A stretch of 64,000 nt of DNA, from the NCBI GenBank assembly GCA_025352885.1, contig JANXRZ010000010.1, positions 1 through 64,000 on the forward strand. The letters are read 5' to 3'. The translations under genes were made by a program, and so were the position numbers. The stretch comes from Pseudomonadota bacterium (GTDB lineage Bacteria > Pseudomonadota > Gammaproteobacteria > Burkholderiales > SG8-39). This document shows, piece after piece, positions 1,766-30,825 of this stretch (the first letter of the stretch is position 1; each line of letters begins with the position of its first letter). The notes beneath the pieces were generated by a model that saw only the letters and a list, made by a program, of their open reading frames with translations, was not told the origin of the DNA and ran no database searches.

Positions 1766-2824
1766 ATGGAAGAACTCAAGTCGCTCGGCCGGTACCAGAT
1801 CAAAGGCGTCCTCGGGAAAGGGGCCATGGGGCTGGTCTACGACGGCCTCGATCCCGGGTTGAATCGACGGGTCGCGATCAAGACCATCCTCGTCAAGCAA
1901 CTCGACGCCGAGATGGCCCAGATGTATTCCAAGCGCTTCGAGCGGGAAGTGCGCGCCGTTGCAAGGCTGAACCACCGCAACATCGTGCAGGTGTACGACT
2001 TCGGCTCTGAGGGCGACGTTGCCTACATCGTCATGGAGTACATCCAGGGCAAGGAACTGAAGGACTATTTCGATGCGAACCAGCGATTCGACCTCAAGAC
2101 CGCCTTCCGGCTGATGACCGAACTGCTGGATGCGCTCGAGTTCGCGCACGATGCGGGCATCATCCACCGCGATATCAAGCCGGCCAACGTCATGGTGGAT
2201 TCCGAAGGGCACGCAAAGCTCACCGATTTTGGCGTGGCCCGTGTCGTGGATCCGGACGCGCCGGCGTCGGAAGCCACGATGACCGGTGCCGTTGTCGGAA
2301 CGCCCGCGTACATGTCGCCCGAGCAGATCCAGGGGGAGCCGATCGACCGCCGGACGGACATCTTCTCGGCCGGAATTATTTTTTACCAGTTCCTCACGGG
2401 GCAAAAACCCTTTGAGGGAACCCAGTGGGCGCTCGCCAAGAAAATCATCCAGGACGATCCGATCAGGCCCTCGAAGCTCGTGCAGGTACCACCGGAGATC
2501 GACCGCATAATTGCCCGGGCACTCGCCAAGAGACCGGAAGCGCGCTACCAGAGCGCGCGCAGCTTCGCCGAGTCGCTGAAGCGCGTTCTCGAAGGCAAGC
2601 CGCCCGAAGACCCGAACGAGGTCCTCGCGCAGCCGCTGCCCGTGACGCCGCCGCCTGCGCCCGCGCCGCGCGCGCAGCAGCAAGGTACGGAGGCCGAGAT
2701 GGAATTCTGGCGGGAAGTCAAAGACAGCGACGATCCCGAGGAAATCGAGTTGTACATCGAGCAATTCCCGAAAGGCGTGTACGTAGAGCTGGCACGCAAG
2801 AAGATCGCCGACCTCGGAGGCTAG
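1766..2824 (+). CDS. Hanks-type Ser/Thr protein kinase, soluble, with C-terminal FWxxVK-type module
   Basis: A eukaryotic-like protein kinase expected to phosphorylate Ser/Thr on unknown proteins. All key elements are present: glycine loop GKGAMG (17-22), catalytic Lys39 in [12 protein letters not shown] with HRD at 134-136, DFG at 154-156 and a YMSPEQ form of the APE motif. The catalytic domain ends near residue 275. A Pro/Ala-rich linker follows (about 285-310). The end is a roughly 40-residue module (FWREVKDSDDPEEIE...FP.G.Y...AR) resembling a short helical repeat seen in other bacterial signalling and caspase-like proteins. No transmembrane segment or PASTA repeat is visible, so it is probably cytosolic. 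A CoA-transferase gene follows after 21 bases and may be cotranscribed. Confidence 0.93.
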   Translation: MEELKSLGRYQIKGVLGKGAMGLVYDGLDPGLNRRVAIKTILVKQLDAEMAQMYSKRFEREVRAVARLNHRNIVQVYDFGSEGDVAYIVMEYIQGKELKDYFDANQRFDLKTAFRLMTELLDALEFAHDAGIIHRDIKPANVMVDSEGHAKLTDFGVARVVDPDAPASEATMTGAVVGTPAYMSPEQIQGEPIDRRTDIFSAGIIFYQFLTGQKPFEGTQWALAKKIIQDDPIRPSKLVQVPPEIDRIIARALAKRPEARYQSARSFAESLKRVLEGKPPEDPNEVLAQPLPVTPPPAPAPRAQQQGTEAEMEFWREVKDSDDPEEIELYIEQFPKGVYVELARKKIADLGG

Positions 2825-25272: not shown

Positions 25273-25602
25273 ATGGACGTTCAGCAAGTCATCCAGCAGC
25301 AGGTCGCCGGAAACCCGGTGGTGCTTTACATGAAAGGCACGCCCCAGGCGCCGCAATGCGGTTTTTCGCAGACTGCGATACAGATCCTCGGCGCGTGCGG
25401 GGTGAAGAGCTTGTTCACGGTAAATGTGCTCGAAGAACCGGAGATTCGCCAGGGCATCAAGGAATACGCGAACTGGCCGACGATCCCGCAGCTGTACGTC
25501 AACGGCGAATTCGTCGGCGGCTCGGACATCCTGCGTGAGATGTACCAGGCTGGCGAGCTTCAGAAACTCCTCGAGCCCGTGGTCGCAAAGCAACCGGCAT
25601 AG
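25273..25602 (+). CDS. grxD: Monothiol glutaredoxin, Grx4 type
   Basis: A 109-residue monothiol glutaredoxin involved in iron-sulfur cluster delivery. The CGFS active site has Cys29 in KGTPQAPQCGFSQTA. The glutathione-binding WPTIPQLYVNGEFVGGSDI segment is intact. With GshA in the window its ligand glutathione is available. It closes the hemA-prfA-prmC group and converges with the downstream kinase gene. Confidence 0.97.
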   Translation: MDVQQVIQQQVAGNPVVLYMKGTPQAPQCGFSQTAIQILGACGVKSLFTVNVLEEPEIRQGIKEYANWPTIPQLYVNGEFVGGSDILREMYQAGELQKLLEPVVAKQPA

Positions 25603-25627: not shown

Positions 25628-26926
25628 TCAGGCGCTGGTCAGCCGTGTGTTTGCCAGATTCAGCCGCTCGACGAGGATGCCGATAAAGGCCCGCTCGAAC
25701 TTGAGTTGGCACGATTCGGTGGCCTTTGCGAGGTCGGCCACGCCAATGCGAACGATGCGTGACTCGCCATTAGCCGAAATGCTTGCGCCGCGGACGTTGT
25801 TGGACTCGGACAGGTACGCCATCTCGCCGAAGCACTCCCCTGCACCGAGCACGTTCAGCAGCTTCTTGTTCTTGGTGACCTTGACCTCACCCGAGACGAG
25901 CAGGCAGAAGTGCTCGCCTTTTTCGCCTTCACGCATCAGCACGGCACCCGCCGCGACCTTCTCCCAGACGCCCATGCCGAGCACTTCCCAGAGTTCCGGA
26001 TCGCTGAATCGCCGGAAAAAATGCATCACCCGCAGGGCGTTGAATTTTTCGCTGTCGGCGAACTCCTCGGTTTTGCGCGAAAGGCTTTCTGCCTTGAACG
26101 CTTCGGCCAGGTCCTTGGCGAAATCTTCCCAGGACTGGTAGCGCCTCGCCTGGTCTTTCTGCATCGCCTTGCGCACGATGCGGTCCACCGACATTGGAAT
26201 GCCGTCCCGAAGCGACGAGGGTGGCGCCGGATCAGTCGTGGTGATCTGGTAGATCATGCTGAAATTGTTCGAGGCCTGATACGGCAGGTGGCCGGTGAGC
26301 AGCTGGTACATCACCACGCCCAGGGAGTAGATGTCGGTCTGCTGGTTGAGGGGCTGCTCCCGGATCTGCTCAGGCGACATGTAGGCAGGAGAGCCGATGC
26401 CGGTGATCTGCGTCGTGTCGATGCCAGAGGACAGTGCGAGGCCGAAATCGGAGATCTTGATGTCGGCTGTCCCTGACATGAGGATGTTTGCCGGCTTGAT
26501 GTCACGATGAGTGACGCCAAGCTGGTTCGCATAGGCAAGCGCTCGAGTGCACTTGAAAATGATCTCGACGATTTTGTCGATCGGCAAAAGGTGGTCGGTG
26601 GCCGTATGGGGCTCCAGCGTTCCGCCGGTCACGTACTCCATCACGATGTAGCCGGAGTCTTCCTCGACTACCGCATCGTAGATCGCCACGATATGGGGAT
26701 GGGCCAGCCTTCCGGCCAGGGAGGCTTCCGCCACGAACAGTTTGCGATAGATGCTCTTGGCGCCCGTTTTCAGGGCCTCGGGAAATATTCGCTTGACCGC
26801 CACTTCACGATCGTTGAATGGGTCGTGGCAGAGATAGACGGCGCTCGTCGCGCCTTCACCGAGCTTGGCGAGGACCGGGTATTTGCCGATCCGCTCTGGC
26901 AGGGATTCCGCTTCGGCCTCGGACAT
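25628..26926 (-). CDS. Ser/Thr kinase fused to C-terminal cyclic-nucleotide-binding domain (copy 1)
   Basis: A 432-residue signalling protein. Residues 15-280 form a Hanks kinase: GEGATS loop (23-28), Lys45 in VAVKR, Glu67 of helix C, HRDIKPAN with HRD at 140-142, DFG at 160-162 and YMSPEQ. After a linker, about residues 300-425 form a cNMP-binding/CAP_ED domain with FCLLVSGEVKVT. Its phosphate cassette, [17 protein letters not shown], keeps the key Glu and Arg. Cyclic-nucleotide control of kinase activity is inferred from domain content. The order (kinase first) is opposite to eukaryotic PKG. No membrane segment is seen. It lies seven bases after its paralogue. Confidence 0.93.
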   Translation of the reverse strand: MSEAEAESLPERIGKYPVLAKLGEGATSAVYLCHDPFNDREVAVKRIFPEALKTGAKSIYRKLFVAEASLAGRLAHPHIVAIYDAVVEEDSGYIVMEYVTGGTLEPHTATDHLLPIDKIVEIIFKCTRALAYANQLGVTHRDIKPANILMSGTADIKISDFGLALSSGIDTTQITGIGSPAYMSPEQIREQPLNQQTDIYSLGVVMYQLLTGHLPYQASNNFSMIYQITTTDPAPPSSLRDGIPMSVDRIVRKAMQKDQARRYQSWEDFAKDLAEAFKAESLSRKTEEFADSEKFNALRVMHFFRRFSDPELWEVLGMGVWEKVAAGAVLMREGEKGEHFCLLVSGEVKVTKNKKLLNVLGAGECFGEMAYLSESNNVRGASISANGESRIVRIGVADLAKATESCQLKFERAFIGILVERLNLANTRLTSA

Positions 26927-26933
26927 GCCTTGT

Positions 26934-28226
26934 CTACACGCCGGAAAGGCGGATGTTGGCCATAGTCAGCCGCTCGACCAGGATTTGCATGAACGCGCGG
27001 TCGAATTTATGACGGCATGAAACGGATGCCTGCTCGAGGTTCGGCGTGGGCACGGAGATGACCTTCGCGTCGCCCATGACCGTGACATCTGCGACCCGCA
27101 CGGGCGCGAGCCTCGACAGGTAAGCCATCTCCCCGAACGCTTCGCCGGTGCGCAGCAGGTTCAGGAGCTTGCCTTTCTTCGTCACCTTGACTTCGCCTTG
27201 CGCGAGGATGCAGAAAAAGTCGCCCGGCTCGCCCTCTTTCATGAGCACCTCGCCAGCCGAGGCGCTGCGCCAGGTGGACATATTGGCCACTTCCCACAGC
27301 TCCGCGTCGGTGAAATGCTCGAAGAACGAGAGAGTCCGGAGCGTTTCGAATTTGCTCGTGTCCGCGAATGCCGACTGTTCGGCATCGACGTAGACGGAAC
27401 GGAACGCTTCGGCCAGGTCCAGCGAGAACGCCTCCCAGTCCGGGTACCGGTCATCGTGCTCGCGGGCCATTGCACGCATGACGATGGCCTCGACGCGCGC
27501 AGGGATCTCCGGCCGGATGGAAGCAGGCGGCGGCGGGTCGAGGTTGGTGATTTGGTAGATCAGGCTGAAGTTGTTGCTGGCCTGGAAAGGGAGCCTGCCC
27601 GTAAGCAGGTGATACATCACCACGCCCATCGAATAGATGTCGGTGCGATGGTCGAGCGGGTGTTCCTTGACCTGCTGCGGCGACATGTATGCCGGGGAGC
27701 CAATCGCCGCGATCTGGGTTGTCTCGGCCGTTGCAATGAGCGCTGCGCCAAAGTCGGTGATCTTCACATCCGAGCCGCCTGCATGCAGGATGTTGGCCGG
27801 CTTGATGTCACGGTGGGTGATGCCTTTGCGATGAGCGAATTCGAGCGCGCGCGAGCACTTGAAGGCCATTTCCACGACCTGCTCGATGGGCAGGAGACTT
27901 TCCGGTGCGCAGAACCGCTCGAGCGTGCCGCCGTCCACATACTCCATCACGATGTAATTCAGGCGATCTTCGGCCACCGCATCGAAGATCTGCACTATGT
28001 GGGGGTGCTGGAGCTTGCCCGCGAGGGACGCCTCGTTCACGAATAATTTCCGGGAAAGCTTGCCCCCCGTCGGGTCCTCGAAGAGGTCGGTGGACACGAC
28101 CTTCACGGCGACGTCCCGGTCGTTGAAGGGGTCGTTGCAGAGGAAGACCTCGGACGTGGCCCCGCGGCCGAGAAGCTTGATGACGGTGTATTTGCCGACC
28201 CGCTCCGGGAATTCGGCGTCGCTCAT
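26934..28226 (-). CDS. Ser/Thr kinase fused to C-terminal cyclic-nucleotide-binding domain (copy 2)
   Basis: A 430-residue paralogue of the preceding kinase, similar along its whole length. Kinase motifs are GRGATS (20-25), Lys42 in VAVK, Glu65, HRD at 138-140 and DFG at 158-160. The APE-equivalent reads YMSPQQ, so the usual glutamate is replaced by Gln, unlike copy 1. The cNMP domain has [12 protein letters not shown] and a cassette [17 protein letters not shown] with Glu and Arg retained. The start overlaps the argH stop as ATGA, so it is coupled to arginine biosynthesis at the translational level. Substrates are unknown. Confidence 0.93.
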
Positions 28227-29680
28227 GACCGGGCGAGCCTTTTGCGCCCTTGGATGATTGCGCGCAGGACCTGCGCCGGGGCCGTCCCGCCGGCGTGATT
28301 GCGGCGCGAGACGGAGCCTTCGAGCGTGAGCCAGTCGTAGACGTCAGGGCCAATCGCTTTCGAGAAAGCACGCAACTCTACGAGCGACAATCCCGACAGG
28401 TCGCAGCCCTTTGCTTCAGCGTCGCGCACTGCGCGCGCGACAATTTCATGGGCGTCCCGGAAGGCGACGCCTTTGCCCACGAGGTAATCGGCAAGATCGG
28501 TGGCCGTCGCAAAGCCTTCCAGGGCTGCGGCGCGCATGCGCTCTGGGACCGGTCGAATGCCCGCAACGAGGTCCGTAAAGACTGCGAGGCAATCCTTTAC
28601 GGTATCGAGCGTGTCGAAAAGCGGCTCCTTGTCTTCCTGGTTGTCCTTGTTGTAGGCGAGCGGCTGCGCCTTCATGAGGGTGAGGAGGGCGACCAGATTC
28701 CCGAACACGCGGCCAGCCTTGCCGCGCACGAGTTCCGGAACGTCGGGATTCTTCTTCTGCGGCATGATCGACGAGCCGGTACAGAACCTGTCGGGCAGGG
28801 TGATGAACTTGTAGCGCGGGCTCATCCAGACGATCAGCTCCTCCGAAAAGCGCGAGAGGTGCACGAGGATCAACGAAGCCGCCGCGGTGAATTCGATTGC
28901 GAAGTCGCGATCCGAAACGGCATCGAGCGAATTTTCGCAAAGGGACTCGAACCCCAGCTCTTTTGCGACGCGCTCGCGATCTATGGGGAAGGTCGTGCCC
29001 GCGAGTGCGGCCGCGCCGAGCGGCAGGCGGTTCACGCGCCGCCTGCAGTCGGCGAGCCGTTCGCGGTCGCGCTCGAACATTTCAAAATAGGCAAGCAGGT
29101 GATGCCCGAAGGTGACCGGCTGGGCGACCTGCATATGCGTGAAGCCCGGCATGACGATCGACGCGTGCTCCTTGGCCGCATCGAGCAGGGCGCCTTCCAA
29201 CCGTGACAGTGCGGCGCGAAGTGCGTCTATCTCCTCGCGAAGGTACAGCCGCACGTCGGTGGCGACCTGGTCATTCCTCGAGCGGCCGGTGTGCAGCCGC
29301 TTGCCCGCGTCGCCGACGAGCGCCGTGAGGCGCTTTTCGATGTTGAGATGCACATCCTCGTCGTCTAGCGACCAGCTGAATTTTCCCGATTCGATTTCCT
29401 TGGAGATCGCCGCCATGCCGCGCTCGATGGAGGCGAGATCGGATTTGGCGATGATGGCCTGCGCGGCGAGCATGCGGGCATGCGCGAGCGACGCTCGGAT
29501 GTCGACCTCTGCGAGGCGACGGTCGAACGACACCGAAGCCGTGAAGCGCTTGACCAGCGCATCGACCGGCTCGGCGAAGCGTCCCGACCACGCTTTTACT
29601 GCGGTGGGGGGGCTGGATGCGGCCCGCTTAGCGACGCGTTCCCGCGACGGTGCCTGCCTTTTTGATTGTCTAGAGGCCAT
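28223..29680 (-). CDS. argH: Argininosuccinate lyase
   Basis: Cleaves argininosuccinate to arginine and fumarate, the last step of arginine synthesis. The signature [12 protein letters not shown] of the fumarase/aspartase superfamily is intact. Other family segments are [39 protein letters not shown] and [16 protein letters not shown]. The 485 residues include a basic N-terminal extension of about 28 residues before the conserved start of the fold; a later start may be the true one. It is followed by two kinase genes in the same operon and is divergent from algZ. Confidence 0.97.
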
Positions 29681-29787: not shown

Positions 29788-30825
29788 ATGAGTATAAAGC
29801 AAAACGCCTATTCAGACGGTCTGCCCGACTTCCGCAATCTAGGAGTCACTGCGCGCATCCTTGTCGCAGTCAACCTGCTTGCGATCGGCGCCGCCTGCTA
29901 TGCGGAACCGACCTGGATGCGGGCCATCGAGCGCTTCGCCGGCGAAGCGGCGTTCATCGAACCCGTCCTCCTCGCGTCCTTCGTCGTGCTCTATTGCATT
30001 TCGCCGGCGCTTGCATCAATGCGCTACCTGACTGCGTGCGCGTTGGTTCTCGCGATCACGCTCGGCCTCGCAGGCGCGTTTATGAACGCCGTTCACTCGG
30101 CCATCACACCCACTGGGGAGGTGCGGGCCCTTGCCCGGATACTGGTCCTAACAACCGTCGTAGTACTTGGGCTCCTTGGCTACCTTCGCTTGCGCGCGAA
30201 GGCCTACTCCCCGGCGCTCACCGAAGCGCGACTGCAGGCGTTGCAAGCGAGGATCCGGCCGCATTTCCTCTTCAACAGCCTGAATGCCGTGCTCTCCCTC
30301 ATTCGCCGCGATCCAAAGCGTGCCGAAGTTGCCCTGGAAGACCTCGCCGACCTCTTCCGCGTGCTGATGTCGGATGGGCGCAAGTTCGTGCGCCTCTCCG
30401 ATGAGATTTCGTTGCTCGAGCGCTACGCGAGCATCGAGCAGCTGCGGCTGGGGAGCCGGCTGCGCCTGGTCTGGGAGATCGACAGCGCGCCGCAGGACGC
30501 GTTGCTGCCCCCGCTGGTGCTGCAACCGCTCCTCGAGAATGCCGTCTATCACGGCGTGGAGCCGGGTACCGGCGTGGGCGAGGTGCTGGTGCAGATTGAG
30601 AGTCGCGGGAAGCGCGTCTTCGTCCGCATGGTCAATCCTTTTCACCCCGAGCATGCGCATCGGCCCGGCAATCGCATGGCCCTGGACAACCTGCGCGAAC
30701 GCCTCACACTTTTCTTCGATGCCGAAGCAAGCATGCAGACAAGCGTGACCGGTGAGCGGTTCAAGGTCGAGATCGAATTTCCGCACTTGACCGAGCGGCC
30801 CGCCGGCGAGGCGGAGGCGCCATGA
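29788..30825 (+). CDS. algZ: Sensor histidine kinase, AlgZ/LytS family
   Basis: A membrane histidine kinase of 345 residues. About four hydrophobic helices span residues 20-130. The His_kinase domain (PF06580 type) then has the phospho-accepting His159 in QARIRPHFLFNSLNAVLSLI. The ATPase domain shows LPPLVLQPLLENAVYHGV and an N box followed by NRMALDNLRERL. Its gene overlaps the response-regulator gene by ATGA. The order argH | algZ-algR-hemC-hemD is the one around AlgZ/FimS in Pseudomonas, which is why I use that name. The stimulus is unknown. Confidence 0.9.
   Translation: MSIKQNAYSDGLPDFRNLGVTARILVAVNLLAIGAACYAEPTWMRAIERFAGEAAFIEPVLLASFVVLYCISPALASMRYLTACALVLAITLGLAGAFMNAVHSAITPTGEVRALARILVLTTVVVLGLLGYLRLRAKAYSPALTEARLQALQARIRPHFLFNSLNAVLSLIRRDPKRAEVALEDLADLFRVLMSDGRKFVRLSDEISLLERYASIEQLRLGSRLRLVWEIDSAPQDALLPPLVLQPLLENAVYHGVEPGTGVGEVLVQIESRGKRVFVRMVNPFHPEHAHRPGNRMALDNLRERLTLFFDAEASMQTSVTGERFKVEIEFPHLTERPAGEAEAP

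Follow-up and report, generated by a model that had tools for sequence, protein, structure and literature searches.

In eukaryotes, it is textbook knowledge that cyclic nucleotides control protein kinases. In PKG, a kinase domain and cyclic-nucleotide-binding (CNB) domains share one polypeptide, with the CNB domains in tandem and N-terminal to the kinase. Bacterial fusions of the two domains are already in print, and the kind is thus known: in the available excerpts of the two papers, Kannan et al. 2007 (PMC2246266) lists kinases as fusion partners of the bacterial CNB domains in its 'Other_bacterial' group, and PMC11032199 implies that CNB domains occur in association with kinases of planctomycetes. 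Two surveys of prokaryotic kinases (PMC1262709, PMC2877116) do not mention cyclic nucleotides or cyclic nucleoside monophosphates (cNMP) in their main text, the accessible portion of PMC1592074 contains nothing on kinase-CNB fusions, and no bacterial Hanks kinase tested and controlled by a cyclic nucleotide was found among the papers listed by full-text searches of the open-licence literature. Here we describe two adjacent genes, K1 and K2, that lie directly behind argH in a 64,000-nucleotide stretch of DNA (the window; positions 1 to 64,000 of contig JANXRZ010000010.1, assembly GCA_025352885.1) from a Pseudomonadota bacterium of the order Burkholderiales. By their Pfam matches and residues, both products are Hanks-type Ser/Thr kinases with predicted catalytic activity and a C-terminal CNB domain. 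We give even chances to the reading that K1 and K2 are cyclic-nucleotide-responsive kinases of the PknB type, PKG-like through a separate fusion rather than members of the PKG group. The genes and their domains are as follows.

28223..29680, minus strand: argH, argininosuccinate lyase, 485 residues (open reading frame; Pfam PF00206, Lyase_1, 1.5e-79, and PF14698, ASL_C2, 3.6e-27)
26934..28226, minus strand: K1, Hanks/PknB-type Ser/Thr kinase with a C-terminal CNB domain, 430 residues (Pfam; first copy of the argH clade)
27552..28190, minus strand: K1 kinase domain, residues 13-225 (PF00069, 6.3e-49)
27030..27269, minus strand: K1 CNB domain, residues 320-399, with cassette Glu366 and Arg377 and an Asp at Arg+3 (PF00027, 3.1e-14)
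25628..26926, minus strand: K2, the second kinase-CNB protein, 432 residues (Pfam; second copy of the argH clade)
26135..26875, minus strand: K2 kinase domain, residues 18-264 (PF00069, 1.8e-51)
25718..25963, minus strand: K2 CNB domain, with cassette Glu368, Arg379 and Ser382 (PF00027, 5.8e-16)

The original prediction, made from the letters of the window, described two full-length paralogues, each a complete kinase joined to a C-terminal CNB domain, directly behind argH. This description is borne out. All four PF00069 and PF00027 matches exceed the curated cut-offs, the argH stop and the K1 start share an ATGA in a 4-base overlap (minus strand; last base of argH 28223, first base of K1 28226), and K2 begins at 26926 after a gap of 7 bases from the K1 end at 26934. 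One qualification attaches to the word complete: at the APE motif K1 reads SPQ, with Gln for Glu (residues 182-185, window ~27672-27683), and K2 reads SPE. The other catalytic residues are present in both proteins (Gly loop, Lys45, Glu67, HRD, Asn147 and DFG in K2 numbering). They were found in all 45 aligned argH-linked rows, apart from a single row without the second loop Gly. In an alignment of 120 members of the kinase-CNB family, the APE Gln occurs in 23/45 argH-linked kinases versus 2/75 other members. K1 and K2 are 57% identical, and comparisons within the genus show purifying selection on both (dN/dS 0.08-0.14 in 12/12 pairs). The kinase domain has PknB as its best sequence match in the PDB (3f69, 1.9e-48). 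A full-length model of K2 (pLDDT 89.6, pTM 0.84) likewise has PknB as the best structure match of its kinase part (5u94; TMt 0.92, root-mean-square deviation (rmsd) 2.2). Both proteins score below the cut-off of NCBIfam PknB_PASTA_kin (285 and 268.7 bits vs 450; K1 stretch 11-285), and their Pfam matches include no PASTA family. AGC kinases carry a C-terminal AGC tail; no AGC-tail family was among the Pfam matches at E<=0.01.

The Glu and Arg that the original prediction took to bind the cyclic phosphate are indeed kept in both cassettes, but they stand 11 apart, a longer spacing than usual. The Arg is present in 120/120 aligned proteins and the Glu in 114/120 (Asp in 5, Gln in 1), a constraint close to that on the catalytic Lys, Asn and DFG Asp, each found in 120/120. 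As judged from the alignment, an invariant Arg with a near-invariant Glu is what a cyclic-phosphate pocket would be expected to show. The Gly of the beta2-beta3 loop co-evolves with the cassette Arg, according to the available part of PMC2246266, and G337, equated with that Gly by alignment reading, is kept in 45/45 argH-linked proteins and 64/75 others. The residue at Glu+2 is Ala in 45/45 argH-linked proteins and in 43/75 other members. In trypanosome PKAs that bind nucleosides and not cAMP, the Arg is gone and a Glu stands at that Ala position, as given in the accessible text of PMC10959531; with its Ala at Glu+2, the argH clade is unlike those PKAs and therefore shows a pattern of the cyclic-phosphate type.

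The Glu-to-Arg spacing of 11 seen in K1 and K2 recurs in 112/120 family members and is 10, 12 or 13 in the other eight, making the lengthened cassette, by alignment, a family-wide trait. Of 25 CNB matches in the window genome, four are the kinases of this family, seven are missing the cassette or one of its two residues, and 14 have both Glu and Arg; among these 14, counted by eye, the spacing is 9 in 12 and 8 in two. Alignment with PKG from the PDB shows a two-residue gap against the family cassette. The consensus motifs of canonical CNB families have a spacing of 9 in the available part of PMC2246266, where motifs of fixed length could hide insertions. A structure search with the full-length K2 model gave kinases only among the matches listed, and the CNB domain was therefore modelled alone. 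This model (pLDDT 95.1) matches known CNB structures, the top match being PycTIR with bound cUMP (8jsk; Z 19.8, rmsd 1.9, 140 aligned); PKG I is another of the cNMP-bound CNB domains among its high matches (4ku7; Z 18.2, rmsd 1.6, 123 aligned).

The link to argH is conserved and stable. In a tree of 120 proteins (of 121 distinct ones; a length filter excluded partial proteins such as G006, G042, G005, L064 and L066), the argH-adjacent kinases form a single clade of 45 rows with SH-aLRT support of 99, in which the sole row classed as lying elsewhere, L023, sits near a contig end. A second tree of 59 proteins, which adds eight loci, places 55 rows from 47 loci and three family groups in the clade, with support of 100/97 on the branch that separates it from four selected outgroup rows, of which L037 is long. 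At 46 of these 47 loci, picked by similarity of the kinase and not of argH, argH lies beside the kinase, and at the remaining one the contig runs out. Outside the clade, none of the 75 family members was found with argH as a neighbour, although for 4 of them <600 bases of upstream sequence are available. The original prediction had named chance proximity to argH as the outcome that would overturn it; for the argH clade, chance adjacency was rejected on the single clade and the 46/47 loci. The aligned kinase start falls 0-190 bases past the argH frame, with a median of 21 (37 loci). The arrangement occurs in 26/61 close genomes (25/37 of the window's bacterial family and 1/24 others) and in at least 14/300 order-level genomes from three family groups; these counts, like that of 42/61 below, are a reading of coordinates and coverage, not scripted. 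In the window genome the putative operon is bounded by two genes.

25273..25602, plus strand: glutaredoxin gene, convergent with K2 (PF00462, 1.8e-19; common to many relatives)
29788..30825, plus strand: histidine kinase gene of algZ type, divergent from argH, which we take to be algZ (PF06580, 2.4e-23; kept in relatives)

Between 25100 and 30100, a promoter scan found 0 sigma-70-like sites vs 1.2 expected; the 8 terminator-like sites (4.4 expected) carry little meaning.

The kinase-CNB architecture is a widespread betaproteobacterial theme and not peculiar to the window. A profile of the four paralogues of the window genome matched 45/61 close genomes at E<=1e-70, and the fusion is present in 42/61 after dropping three seemingly kinase-only matches (G049 and G056 by coverage, G040 by score). 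An argH-clade profile matched 77/300 order-level genomes at E<=1e-150; since it was built from argH-linked rows, its ranking favours argH-linked proteins. Carriers include Rhodocyclus, Thauera, Azoarcus, Sulfuritalea, Azonexus, Propionivibrio, Acidovorax and Rhodoferax. No kinase-CNB match was found among 72,556 plasmid records at E<=1e-60. The window genome (294 contigs) holds two more full-length paralogues elsewhere, four copies in total, along with seven further matches to the kinase part only. One of the paralogues, K3 (L003:1480-2772, minus strand), lies between two genes, presumably thiC and uppP, and overlaps one of them, the uppP-like gene, by 4 bases. Elsewhere in the window, another Ser/Thr kinase gene (1766-2824, plus strand; 352 residues) is 35% identical to K1 in the kinase part only.

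The window genome is also rich in possible sources of a cyclic nucleotide, with 17 matches to class III cyclases at E<=1e-3 and 16 at 1e-6. Across 24 order-level genomes, one per family, the median number of class III cyclases is 6.5 in the 10 carriers of the kinase family vs 1 in the 14 non-carriers (p 0.002; per Mb, p 0.008). GGDEF domains show no clear difference in the same genomes (21 vs 16.5, p 0.17). On two contigs of the window genome, C84 (25238-25765 and 28926-29744) and C102 (3221-3949 and 4437-4994), a Hanks-kinase match has a class III cyclase match on the same strand no more than ~3.2 kb away. The largest number of cyclase matches among the 61 close genomes, 32, was found in a 3.6 Mb genome of the window's bacterial family (G021).

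We adopt cyclic-nucleotide control as the best explanation. What the sequences show are the two domains, the catalytic residues, purifying selection, the near-invariant cassette Glu and Arg, the single argH clade and the stable adjacency. K1 and K2 would be soluble proteins made from the argH transcript. The C-terminal CNB domain would bind a 3',5'-cyclic nucleotide made by the class III cyclases of the cell, and binding would change the (auto)phosphorylation of the kinase through allosteric control. The module might thus work like a bacterial PKG that arose by an independent fusion.

Several observations weigh against this explanation. Relative to the known cNMP binders compared, the cassette has two extra residues, which could alter or abolish binding, and no experiment on a kinase-CNB protein was found in searches of the open-licence literature. 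At Arg+3, 33/45 argH-linked proteins have Asp or Glu vs Thr or Ser in 71/75 others, and an acidic residue there could change the ligand or weaken its binding. The CNB-only model also matches FNR (9qll, Z 17.0), CLP (3iwz, Z 16.4) and a guanosine-bound PKA-R (6hyq, Z 16.8); because CNB folds for other ligands match well, the fold does not fix the ligand. The carriers in the genome comparison are larger than the non-carriers (4.3 vs 2.9 Mb, p 0.05), and within the window's bacterial family (31 vs 5 genomes) GGDEF domains differ too (p 0.007), as do cyclases (p 0.002), so that the higher cyclase numbers of carriers might be no more than a sign of larger genomes rich in signalling. The CNB domain could instead be a dimerisation and scaffold module, or sense a ligand other than a cyclic nucleotide, with the kinase regulated by autophosphorylation of its activation loop. 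The long spacing, the acidic residue near the Arg and the high rank of FNR, CLP and nucleoside-bound PKA-R all favour such an arrangement, as does the retention of the Gln of the activation-loop TQ pair in 43/45 argH-linked proteins and 37/55 others (counted over 100/120 proteins with 20 left out by hand, where all other residue counts use all 120). An invariant Arg and near-invariant Glu are, however, hard to explain without a bound phosphate, and the argH clade has Ala at Glu+2 and not the Glu of the nucleoside binders. We consider a scaffold or other-ligand role possible, though the less expected outcome.

Two further explanations are compatible with cyclic-nucleotide control and concern the setting of the genes and their number. 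The position behind argH could be inherited synteny, in which the kinase borrows the argH promoter for signalling unrelated to arginine, and we lean slightly towards this account. The algZ-algR and glutaredoxin-prmC-prfA genes surround argH with or without the kinase, and 10 of the best 30 argH loci have no adjacent kinase (at least one of them, L130, at a contig edge). At locus L133 of G055, which lacks the kinase, argH is directly followed by a fructosamine-kinase gene. This gene follows the kinase or kinase pair in at least 16/47 argH-linked loci, as found by tblastn with the L044 protein and with flanks that are often short (L044:6851-7753; L012, L015, L020, L022, L026-L028, L031, L033, L039, L041, L043, L065, L252 and L254); the two proteins tested against PF03881 both matched (L044, 3e-102; L065, 2.4e-97). 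It therefore looks as if the kinase occupies a place between argH and a second long-standing neighbour; no fructosamine-kinase gene was found in the window genome, in a search without a positive control. On the other side, none of the argH-clade kinases was found apart from argH (46/47 loci, the other being cut off by a contig end), and the commonest neighbour cluster of paralogues outside argH loci recurs in only 7/76 such rows. The gene calling behind the latter count was rough and greedy, with shadow frames in GC-rich DNA and some merged argH and kinase frames, and the argH cluster was not used. Because the flanking genes are also conserved and argH stands without the kinase in some relatives, the stable position speaks for shared expression rather more than for any part in arginine synthesis. 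Of the proposed tie to arginine synthesis, the conserved place behind argH stands and the metabolic part is conjecture.

As for their number, K1 and K2 may be an unequal pair, with K2 as the more usual sensor-kinase and K1 as a diverged partner whose activity is lowered or changed. Two copies are present in only 8/47 argH-linked loci, four of them in the window's genus, so that a pair is not supported as a requirement. Recent duplication was rejected, as tandem copies are 53-59% identical and the K1-type and K2-type of the window's bacterial family split deep in the tree, with either found alone in other genomes; this old split itself favours two distinct types. The cassette differs between the copies in 6/8 tandem pairs. 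In all six pairs of the window's bacterial family the first copy has Asp at Arg+3 and the second Ser or Thr, and the K1 of all four pairs in the genus also has Gln for the APE Glu. With its Ser at Arg+3, K2 has the more usual CNB domain, and it keeps the APE Glu; K1, with Asp and Gln in these places, could have a different tuning or serve as K2's partner. Yet the Gln need not impair activity, since the 23/45 argH-linked kinases that carry it include single-copy loci, and the cassette contrast is absent in two Rhodocyclaceae-type pairs. A functionally unequal pair seems unlikely to us. The heterodimerisation raised in the original prediction is likewise conjecture.

A wider form of cyclic-nucleotide control can be put forward only tentatively, as a possibility we would not bet on. 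It holds that these proteins are widespread, true cyclic-nucleotide-dependent bacterial Ser/Thr kinases that combine a PknB-type kinase with a CNB domain bearing its own long cassette, possibly for a ligand other than cAMP or cGMP, and that one old branch became part of the argH operon and diverged into an unequal tandem pair. No account of the long cassette, the argH clade or the argH link was found among the papers listed by searches of the open-licence literature. With the family matched in 77/300 order-level genomes and four copies in the window genome alongside many class III cyclases, messenger control of a bacterial kinase becomes directly testable, and the unusual cassette length provides a natural test of ligand choice in CNB domains.

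Set beside known systems, K1 and K2 resemble PknB-type Hanks kinases in their kinase domain and differ from them by the C-terminal CNB domain and the lack of PASTA among their Pfam matches. With PKG they share a kinase and CNB in one polypeptide, and apicomplexan PKGs are the best PDB sequence matches for the CNB domain (5ezr, 4.4e-24 over the whole sequence in four stretches). They differ from PKG in having the kinase first and the CNB last, a single CNB domain, a PknB-like kinase and a cassette two residues longer. The description as a PKA/PKG counterpart with reversed domain order is thus upheld by Pfam for the order relative to PKG, and the counterpart itself is one by analogy only, given the PknB-like kinase, the one C-terminal CNB domain and the absence of a detected AGC tail. 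The Pycsar effector PycTIR has the highest Z for the CNB-only model, with a lead of only ~1 Z, and is a TIR effector, not a kinase. The 'Other_bacterial' CNB consensus GEMALLDGEPR, as given in the available part of PMC2246266, has a spacing of 9 vs 11 in K1 and K2, and that part describes neither a comparable locus nor a comparable function. CNB-domain Ser/Thr kinases of the Planctomycetota, likened here by description only from the accessible part of PMC11032199, belong to another phylum.

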